Part shown: in pieces, positions 5,473-13,035 of the stretch
Layout of the letters: every line of letters starts with the position of its first letter
Numbering within the stretch: position 1 is the first letter of the stretch
From: an uncultured Eubacteriales bacterium
GTDB taxonomy: Bacteria > Bacillota > Clostridia > Oscillospirales > Oscillospiraceae
Direction: 5' to 3'
NCBI GenBank assembly: GCA_900317855.1
Contig: ONIG01000001.1
Span: forward strand, 62,001-126,000
Length of the DNA: 64,000 nt
Notes under the pieces: model-generated
The model's database searches: none
What the model saw: the letters and a program-made list of their open reading frames with translations, nothing else
Told to the model about the DNA's origin: nothing
Translations under genes and position numbers: made by a program

Positions 5473-7287
5473 TCAGGCGCGGTTGAGAATGGCCATGAAC
5501 TCCTCGCCGGTGATGGTCTCCTTTTCATAAAGGTACTTGGCCAGCTCGTCGAGCTTGGCGCGGTTTTCCGTGAGGATGCCGACGGCCTTGGCGTGCTCCT
5601 TTTTCACGAGCGCGACGACCTGATGGTCGATCTGCGTCTGCGTTTCGGCCGAGCAGGCGAGGGAGGTGTCGCCGCCGAGGTACTGGTTCGTGACCGTCTC
5701 GAGTGCGACCATGTCAAATTCCTCGCTCATGCCGTAGCGCGTGATCATGCCGCGGGCGAGCTTCGTCGCCTGCTCGATGTCATTGGACGCGCCGGTGGAG
5801 ATGACGCCGAAGCGCACCTCCTCGGCCGCGCGGCCGCCGGTGAGCGTGGCGATCTTGTTTTCCAGCTCCTCCTTGGTCATGAGATAGTGGTTGCCCTCTT
5901 CGACCTGCATGGTGTAGCCCAGTGCGCCGGACGTGCGGGGGATGATGGTAATCTTCTGCACGGGGGCGGAGTGTGTCTGCAGCGCGGCGACGAGCGCGTG
6001 GCCGATCTCGTGATAGGCGACCGTCCACTTCTCTTTATCGGTGAGGATGGCATTTTTCTTCTGATAGCCCGCGATGACGACCTCGATACTCTCCTCGAGG
6101 TCGGACTGCGTGGCAAAGCGGCGGCCGTCGCGCACGGCGCGCAGCGCGGCCTCGTTGACGATGTTCGCAAGCTCTGCGCCCGAGGCGCCGGAGGCCATGC
6201 GCGCGATCTTATTGTAGTCCACGTCCTCGGCGACCTTGATCTTGCGGGCGTGCACCTTGAGAATCTCCTCGCGGCCCTTGAGATCGGGCAGCTCCACGGG
6301 CACGCGCCGGTCAAAGCGGCCGGGGCGCGTCAGCGCCGGGTCGAGCGACTCGGGCCGGTTCGTGGCGGCGAGGATGATGACGCCGTTGTTGCCCTCAAAG
6401 CCGTCCATCTCGGTCAGCAGCTGGTTGAGCGTCTGCTCGCGCTCGTCGTTGCCGCCGACCTGCCCGTCGCGCTTTTTGCCGATGGCGTCGATCTCGTCGA
6501 TGAACACGATGCAGGGCGCTTTCTCCTTGGCCTGGCGGAACAGGTCACGCACCTTCGATGCGCCCATGCCGACAAACATCTCCACAAATTCCGAGCCGGA
6601 GATGGAGAAAAACGGCACGTTTGCCTCACCCGCAACGGCTTTGGCCAGCATCGTCTTGCCGGTTCCCGGAGGGCCGACGAGCAGGATGCCCTTGGGCATG
6701 GACGCGCCGATCTCCTGATACTTTGCCGGGTCGTGCAGGTAGTTGACGATCTCAGTCAGGTTTTCCTTGGCCTCGTCCTCACCGGCGACATCGGAGAACT
6801 TGATGCCCTCGGCCGACTTGACGTAGACCTTCGCGTTCGAGCCGCCGAGGCCGAACATCATGGAGTTCGGCCCGCCGGCCTTGTTCGTCATGCGCTTGAG
6901 CATGAACTGGCCGAGGGCGACAAAAAACACGATCGGCAGCAGCCACGTCAGCAGAAACGACAGAAACGGCGACATCTGCTCGACGATCTCGCTCGAGAAC
7001 TCCGCGCCGGAGTCCTTCAGACGGTAGATCAGGTCAGGATCGTCCATCAGGCCGGTCTTATAGACCTGCGTGTCGTCTTTGTTCGTGAAGAGGATCTGGT
7101 TGTTCTGCACCTCCACACGGCCGATCTCCTGATTTTCCGTCATGGTCATAAACGTGCCGTAGTCGACCTCCTTGACTTGCCGCTGGCTCAGCCAGGGCAC
7201 CGCCAGAAAGTTGAGCGCCAGAATCACGAGAATGACGATGGCGTAATAATACATCAACGGCTTTTTGGGGCTTTTCACTTCATTCAT
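5473..7287 (-). CDS. ftsH: ATP-dependent zinc metalloprotease FtsH (first copy)
   Basis: A 604-residue membrane AAA+ protease. Two transmembrane helices near residues 13-30 and 107-126 flank an extracytoplasmic domain. The AAA module has Walker A GPPGTGKT near residue 205, Walker [12 protein letters not shown] and the second region of homology with [20 protein letters not shown]. The peptidase domain has the zinc motif HEIGH. FtsH degrades misassembled membrane proteins and some regulators. The start at 7287 follows AAAGGAAG at suitable spacing; the ATG 12 codons upstream does not. A second, 664-residue FtsH is at 48.1-50.1 kb, so this copy may be specialised, perhaps towards the downstream DUF1538 protein (inference). 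Confidence 0.95.
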
Positions 7288-7349
7288 GTGAACGCTTCCT
7301 TTATCTTGATAAAATGTGTGCACTTTTGGGACTTGTGTAACATAACTTT

Positions 7350-7526: not shown

Positions 7527-8402
7527 ATGGAGATGCTTCTTTACCAGAGCACGCAGTTTCGCGACGTGAAAAAGATCCTGTACCGCGCCCATGGCTTTGC
7601 AGGGCTTTTGACGGCCGGCGGCATCGAGGCCTCGCGGCTGGATGTGCCCTTCGTCTGCGACCAGAAGGTGCTCTCGCGTTATGACGATGCGTGCGCCGAT
7701 ATCCGCCGCATCCTGACCATGCAGCTCGGGCTGGAGCTGCCAAAGGGCTTTTCCATTCCGTTGGAGGCCGAGGATCTGGCGGTCTTTTTTTCGCAGCAGT
7801 GCGGCCTGCAGCAGATGCAGGACTACCTGACGCAAAAGCGAGAGCGCACGCGGGCGGACATTCAGACCTGGCTGCGCGACCGCCCGTGGGACACCCACCC
7901 CGTGACGGCGGCGCAGGCGGCGGCGCAGAACCTCGTCTTTGACGCGGCGACCGGTCGCATCGGCACGGACGGCTGCTTCAACGGCGGCACGGTGCTCGAG
8001 CTGCCGTCGTCGGTCGACGGGGTGCGCGTGCGCGCTCTGGCGTCCTACGCCATGGTCTCCTATACGTATCTGGACACGCTCATCCTCCCGGACAGCATCG
8101 AGACGGTCGAGCCCTATGCATTTTATGATAAGGTGCACCTGCGCAGTACGAATCTGCCGCGCGGTCTCGCCGTCATCCCGGAGGGCATGTTCTCGCGCTG
8201 CATCGGCCTGACGGGCATCGTCATCCCGGACAGCGTGCGCGAGATCCACGACGAGGCATTTTACCAGTGCAGCAATCTGGACACGGTCGTCATCCCCGAC
8301 AGCGTGGAGCGCATCGGCCGCTGCGCGTTTTTGAATGTGCGGCGCGTGATCTACCACGGCGGCGCCAAGGGCTTTCCCTGGGGCGCGACGCGGGGCAACT
8401 GA
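7527..8402 (+). CDS. Leucine-rich-repeat (LRR_5/BspA type) protein
   Basis: A 291-residue protein without signal peptide. The N-terminal half (about 1-140) is unrecognised and mixed alpha. From about residue 150 there are LRR_5-type repeats with the pattern L..ILPDSIE.VEPYAF, IVIPDSVREIHDEAF and VVIPDSVERIGRCAF, the Treponema/Bacteroides BspA-like fold, here apparently cytoplasmic. The ATG at 7527 is preceded by GGAGGG; a TTG further up is less likely. It is 18 bases ahead of the AAA+ gene and opens a three-gene cassette. I infer a substrate-binding or scaffold role for the AAA+/VWA pair; the function is unknown. Confidence 0.75.
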   Translation: MEMLLYQSTQFRDVKKILYRAHGFAGLLTAGGIEASRLDVPFVCDQKVLSRYDDACADIRRILTMQLGLELPKGFSIPLEAEDLAVFFSQQCGLQQMQDYLTQKRERTRADIQTWLRDRPWDTHPVTAAQAAAQNLVFDAATGRIGTDGCFNGGTVLELPSSVDGVRVRALASYAMVSYTYLDTLILPDSIETVEPYAFYDKVHLRSTNLPRGLAVIPEGMFSRCIGLTGIVIPDSVREIHDEAFYQCSNLDTVVIPDSVERIGRCAFLNVRRVIYHGGAKGFPWGATRGN

Positions 8403-8420
8403 GAAAGGCGGGAAGGGAAC

Positions 8421-9743
8421 ATGAACATTGCAAAGACGGAGGCCGTCGTCTGCGGCGGCAGCAACCTGAAAGCACCGATGAAGCTCGACTTCCTGCGCTC
8501 GCTTTGCGCGCAGGACCGCCATGCGTGGCCGGAGGTCGTGCTCTGCCGTGTCGAGGGCGAGCCGCTGCCCGTGTGCTGCCTGTCCGAGGCGGCGGCGGGT
8601 GACCTCTTCTCGCGCGTGGGCATCGTGTCCGCGCCGTCGGAGGCGCTCACGGCGCTGCTGCGCACGGCGCCCGTGCGGGCGCGGGTCACGGCGCTGTGCG
8701 ACGCCACGGGCGAGCCGTGCGATGGCGACGCGCCGGACGTCTGGGGCTTTCTCGCCGAATACCGCTGCGGCGATCCGCTCAGCGGCGCGGTGCGCACGGC
8801 CATCGACGGGGCCGCTGCGCGCGGGTGCGCGTCCCCGGAGGCGCTGACCGCGCGCGCCGAGTACCTGCTCGAGCAGGCGGTGCCGGAGCCGATCATCCTG
8901 CGCGTGTTCGCGGAGATGTTCTCCCTGCCGGAATACCCCGAACTGGTGCCGGACCCGCCGGTGCGCTATGTGCAGGCGGACAGCTTCGGCGCGCTCACGC
9001 GCTGCCTTGCCTACCGGCTCTCGGGCATGCACCTGCGCCTCGTCGGCAGCAAGGGCTGCGGCAAGAACACGCTCATCCAGACGGTGGACTGGCTGCTCAA
9101 CGTGCCGCAGTACCGCATGCAGGGCAATGCCGAGCTCGACAAGCTCGACCTGCTCGGCGGCCCGACGATCGAAAACGGCACCATGCGCTACCGCCTGAGC
9201 GACATGCTGCGCTATCTCGCGGCGGGCGCGGACGTCGTGCTCGACGAGGGCAACACCATCAAGCCCGAGTGTGCCGACGTGCTCCACTCGCTGACCGACG
9301 CCGCGCGCCAGATCCAGGTGCCCGGCTACGGGCTCGTGCAGATGCACCCGCACTCGGCGTTCGCGATCACGATGAACGAGGACTATGCCGGTACGAACTT
9401 CATGAACGAGGCGACGATCGACCGCTTTACGCCCATCCACATCGCGGAGCCGGAGAGCATCGTCGATGTGCTGCACCGCGTCGTGCCGGAGGCGGGCGCC
9501 GCCAGCCTGAATATCTGCGACTATGTCTACTGTGCCATCCGCGACCGCATCCGCAGTGCCGGCGGACTCGAGCCGGACGCCATGACGATCCGCGGCTTCA
9601 TCGACGCCCTGCGCGCAGAGCCGCTGCTGGGCCTGCGCTGGGGCCTGCTCGATAACGTGGCCTCCAAGCCGCAGGACGCCTACACCCGCCTCCAGCTGAC
9701 CGAGCTCATTGAGAGCATGGTGCCGCAGGATGGGCGGATTTGA
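8421..9743 (+). CDS. MoxR/CobS-like AAA+ ATPase
   Basis: A 440-residue protein. The N-terminal 180 residues are unrecognised. The AAA_5-type domain follows, with Walker A GSKGCGKNT near residue 213, Walker B VVLDEGN, and a sensor block FAITMNEDYAG. The residue after the Walker A Lys is Asn, not the usual Ser/Thr, with Thr one place later. MoxR-type ATPases remodel protein complexes or drive metal chelation together with a VWA protein. The next gene, a VWA protein with a CobT-like layout, overlaps this one, supporting such a partnership. GGAAGGGAAC precedes the ATG. Confidence 0.85.
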   Translation: MNIAKTEAVVCGGSNLKAPMKLDFLRSLCAQDRHAWPEVVLCRVEGEPLPVCCLSEAAAGDLFSRVGIVSAPSEALTALLRTAPVRARVTALCDATGEPCDGDAPDVWGFLAEYRCGDPLSGAVRTAIDGAAARGCASPEALTARAEYLLEQAVPEPIILRVFAEMFSLPEYPELVPDPPVRYVQADSFGALTRCLAYRLSGMHLRLVGSKGCGKNTLIQTVDWLLNVPQYRMQGNAELDKLDLLGGPTIENGTMRYRLSDMLRYLAAGADVVLDEGNTIKPECADVLHSLTDAARQIQVPGYGLVQMHPHSAFAITMNEDYAGTNFMNEATIDRFTPIHIAEPESIVDVLHRVVPEAGAASLNICDYVYCAIRDRIRSAGGLEPDAMTIRGFIDALRAEPLLGLRWGLLDNVASKPQDAYTRLQLTELIESMVPQDGRI

Positions 9744-11829
9744 CGCCGCGCTGGCGCGCTACCGGGCGTTTCTCGCGCATGATCCCATCACGCCGCTGCT
9801 CCGGCGCAGCCTTGCGCTGCTCGTCCCGGGGAATATCCGGGTCGATACCGTCACGGCGGATGACAGCCTGCGCTGCACGACGGACGGTACGGCCGTCACC
9901 GTTGGCGGGGCGGAATACCTGCTGCGCGCGGATTTTGACGCCCGCCACTGGACGGCTGCGCTGCGTGTGCTGCTCGCGCGGGAAATTCAGCACGACAGCA
10001 GCTCCGACCGGGACGTCTGCGCGGCGTTCGCAGCAGACGCCGGTGCGTATTTTTACGCGCATTATGCCCTCGCGACCGAGACCGGGGCGCTGCTCGGGCA
10101 TCGGATATTGAATATTCTGGAGCAGGCGCGCACGGATAACATCCTCTGCCGCCGCTTTCCGGGCTACCTGCCGCTGCTGCGCTTCGTGTGCTATGCGCAG
10201 CTCGAGGCGGCCGAACCCGGCAGCGCGCTCGAGGCGCTGCTCTGTGAGCTGGAGGCCTTTGCCCTCACGGGCATCCCGTACCGGGACCCGGCACTCTCCG
10301 CCGTCCGGGCGGAGGTGGAGGCGGCCATTCTCGCGCCGTCGGCCGCCGCGTGTGCGGAGATCGGCCGCCGCATCCTCACGGCGCTCGCGCCGGAGCTGGC
10401 GCGCCTGTGCCGCATCGCGGACGCCGATGCGCTCGCGCGCATCGCATCGCAGCTCGAGGACTATGCCTTCAGCGAGGCGGACCGCGCCGAAGCGCTCGGC
10501 GACGGGTGCGACAGCCGCCTCCGCCTGCGCAGCGAGGCGCAGGACGCGGCGCGTCAGGGCCCCTCTGCCGACGGGGAGGACGCAGACCTCGACAAGGGCG
10601 ACAGTGCGGCCGGCGGCAGCGGCGACAACTCCGAGCGCCAAGGCGACATGAGCGGCAGCCTCGCCAGTCAGGAGGTCAAGCCGAGCGGCTCGGCCGGAAC
10701 CAACGGCAGGGAGGACCGCGGCCGGTCGTCCAGCGTCGGCCGCAGCGGCAATCATGGCCAGAGCGGGGCGACCGCAACCACGTCGGACACGGTGTCCGCC
10801 GCGCAGAAGGCGGCCTCCGGCGAGCCGGAGAGCCTGCGCGAAGTGCTCGGCACGGGCTGGGGCGCGCACCGCGGCTTTGCGCTCAGCGCGGCCGAGACGG
10901 ACGCCATGCTTGCCACGGCGGCGCAGGCGCTCACGCGCGAGCGCGCGCTCGAGCAGCAGCTGCATGTTGCTGGCCCGCGTGCCGCCCGGCTCGACGCCGG
11001 GGAGCGGCAGGGCCTGGCCGAGCGTTACGCCGGTCTGACGTTCACGGAGACGTATATCACGCCGGGCGGCGGACGGCTGCCGCCTGCGTTTGCCGAGCGG
11101 GCAAAGGCGCTGCACCACCGGCTCGACAAGCTCCTGCGCCAGCAGCGCGAACGCAGTGCCAGCCAGCGCACCGGCGCGCTCTCGCAGCGGGAGCTGTGGA
11201 AGGTGCCGCTCGATGCCAAGGACGTTTTCCGCCGCAAGGCGCCGCCGTCCAAGCGTGAGACGGCGTTTTACCTGCTTATCGACCGCAGCGGCAGCATGGG
11301 CGCCGGAATCGGCGACGGGAACTCCAAGCTCTTCACGGCGCTGGCCACGGCGGCCGTGCTCGAGGAGGCGCTCAAGGGCATCGCCTATACGAAGATCGTT
11401 GCCTTTGACGGCGGCACGAACGCCGTGGAGCACTGCGTCATCAAGGATTTTGACCAGAAGGAGATCGGCAGCCGCTGCATCGACGCCATGACGCAGATCG
11501 CCGCCGGCAACGGCAACAAGGACGGCTATTCCATCCGCGCTGCCGCGCTGGATCTGGCCAAGCGCACCGAGCGCCGCAAGATCCTCATGGTGCTCTCCGA
11601 CGGGCTGCCGTCCGGCTATTTCAGCGAGGCGGAGGCAATCGACGATGTGCGCACGGCCGTGCAGGCGGCGCGCCGCCGGGGCCTGCTCGTCATCCCCATC
11701 ATTTACACTGCGCGCACGGACGAGAACGTGGACGCTTACCGCCGTATGTACGAAAAGAGCATGATCTTTGCCGATTCCGTGGGCATGCTCGGCGAGTTTG
11801 AGCGCCTGCTCATGAAGCTGGTGCGCTGA
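9730..11829 (+). CDS. CobT-like VWA domain protein
   Basis: A 699-residue partner of the AAA+ ATPase. Residues 1-280 are helical and unrecognised. About 280-370 is a low-complexity Gly/Ser/Asp/Gln linker rich in charged repeats, as in the CobT subunit of cobaltochelatase. The C-terminal VWA domain begins around residue 510 with the metal-ion-dependent adhesion site DRSGSMG (DxSxS) and has VLSDGLPSGY further on. The chosen ATG overlaps the AAA+ gene by 14 bases; a TTG seven codons upstream is possible. Cobalamin genes are absent nearby, so this is probably not cobaltochelatase but an orphan MoxR-VWA chaperone (inference). Confidence 0.85.
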   Translation: MGGFDAALARYRAFLAHDPITPLLRRSLALLVPGNIRVDTVTADDSLRCTTDGTAVTVGGAEYLLRADFDARHWTAALRVLLAREIQHDSSSDRDVCAAFAADAGAYFYAHYALATETGALLGHRILNILEQARTDNILCRRFPGYLPLLRFVCYAQLEAAEPGSALEALLCELEAFALTGIPYRDPALSAVRAEVEAAILAPSAAACAEIGRRILTALAPELARLCRIADADALARIASQLEDYAFSEADRAEALGDGCDSRLRLRSEAQDAARQGPSADGEDADLDKGDSAAGGSGDNSERQGDMSGSLASQEVKPSGSAGTNGREDRGRSSSVGRSGNHGQSGATATTSDTVSAAQKAASGEPESLREVLGTGWGAHRGFALSAAETDAMLATAAQALTRERALEQQLHVAGPRAARLDAGERQGLAERYAGLTFTETYITPGGGRLPPAFAERAKALHHRLDKLLRQQRERSASQRTGALSQRELWKVPLDAKDVFRRKAPPSKRETAFYLLIDRSGSMGAGIGDGNSKLFTALATAAVLEEALKGIAYTKIVAFDGGTNAVEHCVIKDFDQKEIGSRCIDAMTQIAAGNGNKDGYSIRAAALDLAKRTERRKILMVLSDGLPSGYFSEAEAIDDVRTAVQAARRRGLLVIPIIYTARTDENVDAYRRMYEKSMIFADSVGMLGEFERLLMKLVR

Positions 11830-11852: not shown

Positions 11853-11881
11853 TTGACAAGCCCGGCGCGGTGTGCTATGAT
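11853..11881 (+). promoter_or_regulatory. Consensus promoter of the riboswitch transcript
   Basis: TTGACA and TATGAT are separated by exactly 17 bases. The start of transcription would fall at about 11888, just ahead of the aptamer. Confidence 0.85.
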
Positions 11882-11889
11882 GCTTTCTC

Positions 11890-11983
11890 GTTAAAAGGGA
11901 GTAGTTGCAAATGCATGGCCAACAATCTCCCGGCACCCGCCGGTGGCCATGCGCCTATTCGATAGGTAATGAGACTTTTAGCA
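11890..11983 (+). promoter_or_regulatory. yybP-ykoY (Mn2+) riboswitch aptamer
   Basis: The 5' strand holds GTTAAAAG followed by GGAGTAG, and the 3' strand holds GAGACTTTTAGC; GTTAAAAG pairs with CTTTTAGC to form an 8-bp P1 with one wobble. An internal GGCCAACA matches the conserved loop of the other leg, enclosed by GCATGGCC/GGCCATGC. These are the marks of the yybP-ykoY family, which binds Mn2+ at the junction of two loops. It is followed by a terminator that uses the P1 3' strand, and by a cation exchanger gene. I infer an ON switch: metal stabilises P1 and prevents termination. Confidence 0.8.
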
Positions 11984-12020
11984 CATCATATTTATGATCG
12001 TGCCGAAAGTCTCTTTTTTT
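11971..12020 (+). terminator. Riboswitch-controlled intrinsic terminator
   Basis: GAGACTTT pairs with AAAGTCTC, with an extended inner stem and a bulge, followed by TTTTTTT. The 5' arm contains the 3' strand of riboswitch P1, so the two structures exclude each other. Confidence 0.85.
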
Positions 12021-12045
12021 GCGCGATCACGAAGGAGAATGCGTT

Positions 12046-13035
12046 ATGAACCTCGATTTTACCGGCAGTACCCTCTTTCTCGTCCTGCTGCTGTTCGCGG
12101 CGGGCCTTGTGTGCATCATCAAGGGCGGCGACTTTTTTGTCGACGCCGCCACGTGGATCGCGGAGGCCTCCGGCATCCCGAAATACATCATCGGCGCGAC
12201 GGTCGTGAGCTTTGCCACGACCATGCCGGAGATGCTCGTGTCCGTGTTTTCGGCCCTCGAGGGCAACGCGGACATTGCCGTGGGCAATGCCATCGGTTCC
12301 GTCACGGCCAATACCGGTCTCATCATGTGCCTGTCGCTGATCTGTATGGAGTGCACCATGCCGCGTCGGCAGTATGCCGTCAAGGCAGTGCTGCTGCTGG
12401 CGGCGATTGCGATCCTGTTCGGCTTCACGCGCGACGGGCAGCTGTCCATCGTCGAGAGCGTTGTGATCCTCGTCATTTTCGTGTGCTTTGTCGTCGAGAG
12501 TCTTGTTGCCGCACGGCGTGAGCAGACGCTCGAGGGGCCGGAGGCCGACGAACGCCCGAAAACGGACGGCCGGACGATCGCGTTCAACATCGGCAAGTTC
12601 GTGCTCGGCGCTGCGGCCATCGTGCTCGGCGCGCAGCTGCTGATCGATAACGGCACCGCGCTCGCGCAGATGGTCGGCGTGCCGGACGCCATCATCGGCG
12701 CGACCATGATCGCCATCGGCACCTCGCTGCCGGAGCTCGTGACAACCATCACGGCCATTCGCAAAAAGCAGTCGTCCCTGTCGGTGGGCAACATCATCGG
12801 TGCGAATATCATGGACCTCACGCTTATCATGCCGCTGTGCGCGCTCATCCTTGGCAAGCCCCTGCCGGTCGAGCGGCAGGGCATGCTGCTGGACATTCCG
12901 GCGTGTCTTGTCGTGTGCGCAGGTGCGCTCATCCCGGCGCTCGTGCAGGGCAGGTTCAAGCGCTGGGTCGGCTTTTTCATCGGCGGACTGTATATCGCGT
13001 ATCTTGTCATCATGTTCACGTGCTTCGGCGCGTAA
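12046..13035 (+). CDS. CaCA-family Na+(H+)/Ca2+ or Mn2+ exchanger (YrbG-like)
   Basis: A 329-residue integral membrane protein with about ten hydrophobic segments and two alpha-repeats: GATVVSFATTMPEML with AVGNAIGSVTANTG in the first half, GATMIAIGTSLPELV with SVGNIIGANIMD in the second. These carry the ion-coordinating Glu and Asn/Ser residues of the calcium/cation antiporter superfamily. GGAG lies 9 bases before the ATG. Position behind a yybP-ykoY riboswitch suggests the physiological cargo is Mn2+, or Mn2+ together with Ca2+, exported when metal is high (inference). A strong terminator follows, so it is a single-gene unit. Confidence 0.9.
   Translation: MNLDFTGSTLFLVLLLFAAGLVCIIKGGDFFVDAATWIAEASGIPKYIIGATVVSFATTMPEMLVSVFSALEGNADIAVGNAIGSVTANTGLIMCLSLICMECTMPRRQYAVKAVLLLAAIAILFGFTRDGQLSIVESVVILVIFVCFVVESLVAARREQTLEGPEADERPKTDGRTIAFNIGKFVLGAAAIVLGAQLLIDNGTALAQMVGVPDAIIGATMIAIGTSLPELVTTITAIRKKQSSLSVGNIIGANIMDLTLIMPLCALILGKPLPVERQGMLLDIPACLVVCAGALIPALVQGRFKRWVGFFIGGLYIAYLVIMFTCFGA

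Follow-up and report, generated by a model that had tools for sequence, protein, structure and literature searches.

In a window of 64,000 nucleotides of DNA from an uncultured Eubacteriales bacterium (assembly GCA_900317855.1, contig ONIG01000001.1, positions 62,001 to 126,000; the source genome comprises 1.96 Mb in 49 contigs), we have analysed a cassette of three genes that code, in this order and on the + strand, for a leucine-rich repeat (LRR) protein, a MoxR-clade AAA+ ATPase and a VWA protein. The LRR gene was found directly upstream of the ATPase gene in every genome with the full-length ATPase, and the N-terminal domain of the VWA protein, in which a HExxH motif is degenerate, is common to AAA/VWA pairs embedded in replication genes on Bacillales megaplasmids. 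The reading that we favour, at somewhat less than even confidence, is that the cassette specifies an LRR-guided MoxR/VWA remodelling machine, that its AAA/VWA pair is a chromosomal branch of the megaplasmid pairs and that it acts, most likely, on a nucleoprotein or mobile-element complex as its client.

The LRR gene is a strict partner of the ATPase gene

All three open reading frames lie on one strand, with 18 nt between the LRR and AAA+ genes and an overlap of 14 nt between the AAA+ and VWA genes, which bears out a first-pass annotation of the sequence that had described them as tightly packed:

7527..8402, + strand, LRR protein gene (291 amino acids)
8421..9743, + strand, MoxR-clade AAA+ ATPase gene (440 amino acids)
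9730..11829, + strand, VWA protein gene (699 amino acids; its start overlaps the ATPase gene)

Each product has a Pfam match above the curated cut-off, LRR_5 at 73.4 bits (cut-off 27.7), AAA_5 at 56.5 bits (cut-off 22) and CobT_C at 36 bits (cut-off 21), respectively. One genome per species was scanned with an alignment of the full-length ATPase, and five loci were detected in four genomes besides that of the window: CAG:103 (L045), RUG10603 (L047), JAKOSQ (L046 and L049) and JAUMWD (L048). A relative of the LRR protein is encoded directly upstream of the ATPase in RUG10603 (50% identity), JAKOSQ (54%) and JAUMWD (37%), with a VWA gene directly downstream in each. The CAG:103 cassette is split by a contig end within the ATPase gene, the LRR gene and the start of the ATPase gene being on one contig and the remainder on another. 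The first-pass annotation had made its case depend on conservation of the LRR gene beside the ATPase gene in related genomes, and such conservation is what we found: the triad of genes is present in all five genomes with a full-length ATPase, that of the window included, and the LRR gene is directly upstream in each. The second locus of JAKOSQ (L049) codes for an ATPase core that is 69% identical and has no N-terminal extension; the contig ends within the gene, and no LRR relative was detected in the 6 kb upstream.

Profiles of single domains gave the same picture. Of 400 family genomes, five had a match to that of the LRR N-terminal domain and 395 had none; by contig coordinates the five are the same triad genomes. 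Among 391 genomes of the class this profile matched one, the window's own. A profile of the ATPase extension had clear matches in 4 of 370 family genomes, all of them triad genomes, together with one marginal match over 44 positions (E 0.0017). This cassette of gut bacteria is thus a rare one.

Outside the triad the flanks differ. In the window the cassette is bounded by ftsH (5473-7323, minus strand, divergent) and a Na/Ca exchanger gene (12046-13035), the neighbours being FtsH, DUF1538 and the exchanger; FtsH and the exchanger were recovered only in CAG:103. The JAUMWD flank has a TetR gene and others, and in RUG10603 (L047:8207-10924) larB, a larE-like gene and larC start 259 nt downstream of the cassette (AIRC 58 bits, Ni_insertion 464 bits). 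The genes stay together while their surroundings change, which marks the cassette as a functional unit; it probably moves, or is frequently lost. Adjacency in five of five genomes with different outer flanks also led us to reject the LRR gene as a chance neighbour.

The nearest relative found was the genome of Firmicutes bacterium CAG:103, whose cassette DNA is 94% identical. The ratio of nonsynonymous to synonymous substitution rates (dN/dS) against this relative is 0.26 for the LRR gene, 0.03 for AAA codons 106-440 and 0.12 for VWA codons 188-699; the cassette genes are under purifying selection. The VWA gene of CAG:103 is frameshifted at a short tandem duplication (L045:1550-1600); the gene may have decayed, or the assembly may be wrong there.

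The LRR protein is of the BspA type

Two parts can be distinguished in the LRR protein:

7527..7895, + strand, N-terminal domain, about residues 1-123 (AlphaFold2 predicted local distance difference test, pLDDT, about 90; strands, then helices)
7893..8402, + strand, BspA-type LRR region with the C-terminal motif YHG.A.GFPWGA (structure match to TpLRR)

The LRR_5 score agrees with the first-pass assignment to the BspA type, and the repeat region was superimposed on Treponema pallidum TpLRR (6mlx_B) with a VIA-align Z of 18.7 over 160 residues and a root mean square deviation (rmsd) of 2.2. With the model of the whole LRR protein as query, no PDB match covers the N-terminal domain. Several of the best-matching BspA-type LRR structures carry titles of cell-surface proteins, as one would expect if the LRR protein were a passenger, or a surface adhesin, that adjoins the pair by chance. 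We consider this very improbable. The highest 19-residue Kyte-Doolittle mean in the protein is 1.42, i.e., it has no membrane-length hydrophobic stretch, in keeping with the cytoplasmic location first assigned to it; moreover, its adjacency to the pair persists among different outer flanks, and its N-terminal domain occurs nowhere else in the 400 family and 391 class genomes.

The VWA N-terminal domain is common to megaplasmid pairs

ATPases from plasmid records (Jeotgalibacillus, Paenibacillus, Geobacillus, Brevibacillus and Aneurinibacillus) are 32-39% identical to that of the window over 68-75% of the query (E 1e-53 to 1e-36), and those of shorter clostridial pairs are 27-34% identical to its core. 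We examined the gene neighbourhoods in six of the seven plasmid records (L062-L066 and L068), namely pSC2 of Paenibacillus polymyxa and the plasmids of Jeotgalibacillus, Geobacillus, Brevibacillus, Aneurinibacillus and P. thiaminolyticus; H30, with the same length and match as pSC2, was left out. In five of the six, the ATPase gene is immediately preceded by genes for a single-stranded DNA-binding protein (SSB) and a CHC2 primase, and in four of the six a DNA polymerase III alpha gene is found no more than 5 kb downstream.

Within the VWA protein of the window the following regions were delimited:

9730..10503, + strand, metallopeptidase-like N-terminal domain, about residues 1-258 (triad profile matches to megaplasmid VWA proteins)
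9979..9993, + strand, degenerate HExxH, REIQH (window copy)
10507..10839, + strand, polar linker between the N-terminal and VWA domains, about 110 amino acids, residues about 260-370 (orthologue alignment)
11242..11829, + strand, VWA domain, with DxSxS (DRSGS) at 11281-11295

We built a profile from the first 265 residues of the four triad VWA proteins. All six megaplasmid VWA proteins matched it at 71-99 bits, the best of 1,017 scored shuffles (1,800 made) reaching 4.7. The same profile scored below zero on all ten short clostridial VWA proteins, and also on the VWA proteins of an IMG/VR contig and a Gordonia phage. HExxH is present in the N-terminal domains of all six megaplasmid proteins; the proteins of the IMG/VR contig and the Gordonia phage have it in a similar position. 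The site reads HEVQH in two of the four triads, REIQH in the window and QEVQH in P0015; the intact motif that an active HExxH metallopeptidase requires is absent from the window copy and present in two of the four triads. Pfam HIRAN was found at the N-terminus of three of the five megaplasmid ATPases scanned, above the cut-off in one (Brevibacillus).

The megaplasmid pairs resemble the triad pairs in the order AAA then VWA, in a GKN Walker A motif, in the fusion of a metallopeptidase-like N-terminal domain to a VWA domain and in having a region before the AAA core. They differ in that no adjoining LRR gene is annotated, HExxH is intact in each of the six, some have an N-terminal HIRAN and the pairs are embedded in replication genes.

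The short pairs, of an ATPase of about 300 amino acids and a VWA protein of about 570, occur in some genomes of the same order without an adjoining relative of this LRR protein. In one such genome (G084, locus L024) a large LRR_5-type protein is encoded a few kb away. In a tree of 29 ATPase cores the triads form one clade (99/100) and five of the six plasmid proteins another (99/97), while a third (95/94) consists of the short pairs, two unverified phage records and one Butyrivibrio plasmid. The two records within the short-pair clade, MT836279 and MT838859 (unverified 'Bacteriophage sp.'; L069 and L070), may be bacterial contigs. An origin of the cassette from short clostridial pairs was rejected, as the VWA N-terminal domain matched none of the ten and the triads form their own clade outside the short clade. 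Nor are the short clostridial pairs the nearest relatives that we found.

In the viral contigs searched, nothing related to the triad ATPase was detected. The IMG/VR contig (L067:6881-14123) codes for an ATPase with GKN and a VWA protein with HEAAH, about 0.75 kb upstream of an apparent replicative helicase/primase gene that is followed by a SNF2-like helicase, as read from the translations. A MoxR pair is also encoded by group 2.2 jumbo phages; its vWA protein bears a fused metallopeptidase domain, and the authors who described it propose that it acts in virion assembly (Iyer et al., 2021; PMC7824862). The likeness to the triad lies in a MoxR AAA+ protein with a VWA protein bearing an N-terminal metallopeptidase domain, whereas the jumbo-phage pair belongs to phages, has that proposed role in virion assembly and, in the available text of the source, is mentioned with no LRR partner. 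Given the VWA N-terminal domain common to the triads and the megaplasmid pairs, and the peptidase-VWA fusion in jumbo phages, the pair in the window is best regarded as a cellular offshoot of a type that belongs to mobile elements, its peptidase motif having decayed in the window copy.

The ATPase belongs to the MoxR clade and carries an N-terminal extension

CbbQ and NorQ are the best Foldseek matches of the ATPase, whose core model is poor (mean pLDDT 55) and was used only for this likeness. Together with the AAA_5 and CobT_C scores and DRSGS at residues 518-522 of the VWA protein, these matches identify a MoxR-clade AAA+/VWA pair, as the first-pass annotation had it. The ATPase has two further features:

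9045..9071, + strand, Walker A, GSKGCGKNT, with Asn after Lys (sequence)
8433..8784, + strand, N-terminal extension (fold resembling HIRAN by prediction only; pLDDT about 82 over residues 20-110)

Most P-loops have Ser or Thr where GKN has Asn. GKN was found throughout the triad, plasmid and short groups of ATPases, a count that does not cover the Alkalihalophilus and Cytobacillus plasmid proteins; in CbbQ and in the Gordonia phage protein its place is taken by GKT.

The cysteines C11, C52, C93 and C100 of the extension are invariant in the four orthologues aligned. The predicted extension aligned with 3k2y_B at a VIA-align Z of 7.6 (95 residues aligned of its 103, rmsd 4.0), and by the tool's own caution a Z under 8 may reflect a common structural arrangement. 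3k2y is a HIRAN domain by Pfam (42.2 bits on a 58-residue part) and was also the best PDB match of a profile of the first domain of the plasmid ATPases (E 0.013). The triad ATPase extension itself has no Pfam HIRAN match. Profile-profile comparison with the megaplasmid N-terminal domains gave P values of 0.017 for the second domain and 0.8 for the first; no HIRAN chain was found when the extension profile was run against PDB chains; and the same profile scored megaplasmid N-termini no better than shuffles. We rejected a HIRAN identity by sequence on these three tests and, because only the predicted fold supports it, describe the extension as tentatively HIRAN-like. In the open-licence literature we found nothing on 3K2Y, or on Lactobacillus plantarum, in connection with HIRAN. 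The HIRAN domain of HLTF is reportedly tied to replication-fork remodelling.

The NorQ/CbbQ fold, the CobT_C relatives of the VWA domain, the four invariant cysteines and the lar genes of RUG10603, which belong to the nickel-pincer cofactor, would all suit a metal-insertion chaperone of the kind of CobST, NorQD and CoxDE: a target enzyme, on which the LRR protein docks, would be opened by the pair to take up a metal or metal cofactor. We hold this to be quite unlikely: no target-enzyme gene is linked in the window, the flanks read around the other triads show no lar genes, the AAA/VWA pairs that we found to be most closely related lie in replication clusters and, although the CobT_C domain exceeds its Pfam cut-off, the NCBIfam equivalog models for CobS (TIGR01650; 10.8 bits, cut-off 558.55) and CobT (TIGR01651; 20.2 bits, cut-off 759.05) fall far short. 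Those two scores rule out a cobaltochelatase, and the label CobT-like, given at first to the third protein, had to be dropped, the N-terminal half being the metallopeptidase-like domain common to the megaplasmid pairs. The gas-vesicle protein GvpN was likewise ruled out (TIGR02640; 36.6 bits, cut-off 266.8).

Comparison with ternary conflict systems

An LRR protein tied to a MoxR/VWA pair recalls the MoxR-vWA ternary conflict systems of Kaur et al. (2020; PMC7159879), in which a third protein, VMAP, iSTAND, FtsH or a beta-propeller, accompanies the pair; the main text of that paper has LRR once, not as a defining third component. If the cassette were an anti-invader system of this type, the LRR protein would be its third, sensing component. 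The ternary layout and the patchy distribution among the family genomes speak for such a system, and so does the LRR repeat region as the fastest-changing part compared (dN/dS 0.52, next to 0.18 for the LRR N-terminal domain and 0.03 for the ATPase), a figure behind which there are very few changes (dS 0.047). However, none of the four published third components was detected in a Pfam scan of the three cassette proteins, PADLOC had no match for the cassette and no linked effector gene was recognised. The adjoining FtsH is divergent and is not kept beside the RUG10603 cassette. An FtsH-type ternary system was rejected, the divergent FtsH of the window being present also in CAG:103 but absent from the flanks in RUG10603; in L046 and L048 the sequence stops too close to the cassette to show either way. 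A conflict system of the published type is, in our view, unlikely; a part in stress or phage defence is possible.

A putative LRR-guided remodelling machine

Under the reading that we favour, the three gene products would form one cytoplasmic protein-remodelling machine. The AAA+ protein would assemble into a ring, on which the VWA domain of the third protein would dock, as in NorQD and CbbQO, and ATP-driven force would pass through the linker to the N-terminal domain of the VWA protein, a (pseudo)metallopeptidase-like, putative client-handling domain. The LRR protein, soluble and one-to-one with the ATPase, is likely an adaptor, which would be dedicated to choosing the client or the place of action. 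By analogy, the ring and the VWA protein probably act on the client via the VWA N-terminal domain. In the available text on NorQD, a finger of the VWA domain enters the ring, and the activity of the ring, which twists, remodels the linker of the VWA protein (PMC13036017; PMC9976466). NorQ-NorD and CbbQ-CbbO share with our pair an AAA_5-type ring ATPase and a C-terminal VWA domain with DxSxS, and they are its best Foldseek matches; they differ in having known clients and in N-terminal domains that are unrelated as far as compared.

The linker had been annotated as long and of low complexity. A polar linker of about 110 residues does exist, but it is not simply low-complexity, being well conserved in three of four orthologues, and in these three it would fit a NorQD-type mechanism. 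NorQ-NorD and CbbQ-CbbO are not known to have an LRR subunit.

As to the client, the first-pass annotation rightly named no substrate. Because the pair appears to branch from megaplasmid replication-cluster pairs, a nucleoprotein or mobile-element complex is the most likely client, rather than a metal-cofactor enzyme; of three ideas about the function, the replicon origin suggests this one, which we give the most weight, under one half. A more specific form of it, which we regard as unlikely, is that a megaplasmid or phage replication pair was domesticated into a fifth kind of MoxR-vWA ternary system, a chromosomal one. In it, a dedicated LRR adaptor, with its N-terminal domain seen in no other context searched, would bring a GKN ring, equipped with a HIRAN-like tether to DNA ends and with the VWA protein as its pseudo-metallopeptidase arm, to nucleoprotein complexes, perhaps those of the source mobile elements.

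Several observations weigh against a replication-derived remodelling machine. Among the neighbours inspected, the cassette in the window does not lie with SSB, primase or DNA polymerase genes, and no replication genes were seen beside any triad within the flanks available. The tree of 29 ATPase cores leaves the sister group of the triad clade unresolved. The HIRAN-likeness of the extension comes down to one structural match below Z 8, set against three failed sequence tests. The long linker cannot be essential, since the orthologue in P0015 is without it. Finally, the lar genes of RUG10603 suggest that, in that genome, a metal-cofactor role fits equally well.

Neighbouring sequences

The region before the Na/Ca exchanger gene (11853-12045) has a strong sigma-70-like promoter (11/12, with an extended -10). 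The leader is about 165 nt long, and an apparent hairpin, followed by a T run, lies near 11970-12020. A manganese or other riboswitch was suspected by eye, and the leader matched no Rfam family.

Significance

In the open-licence literature (subscription papers were not covered) we found no description of a system that combines an LRR gene and a MoxR/VWA pair, and the cassette would be a MoxR/VWA machine with an LRR partner, a combination not found in print there. MoxR/VWA pairs are widespread and mostly without known clients, and an LRR adaptor of its own would give such a system a direct route to the client. With GKN in Walker A across the clade, one may also ask how magnesium is bound in these ATPases. 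By its link to megaplasmid and phage pairs that lie in replication clusters, the cassette points to the remodelling of nucleoprotein complexes instead of metal insertion.

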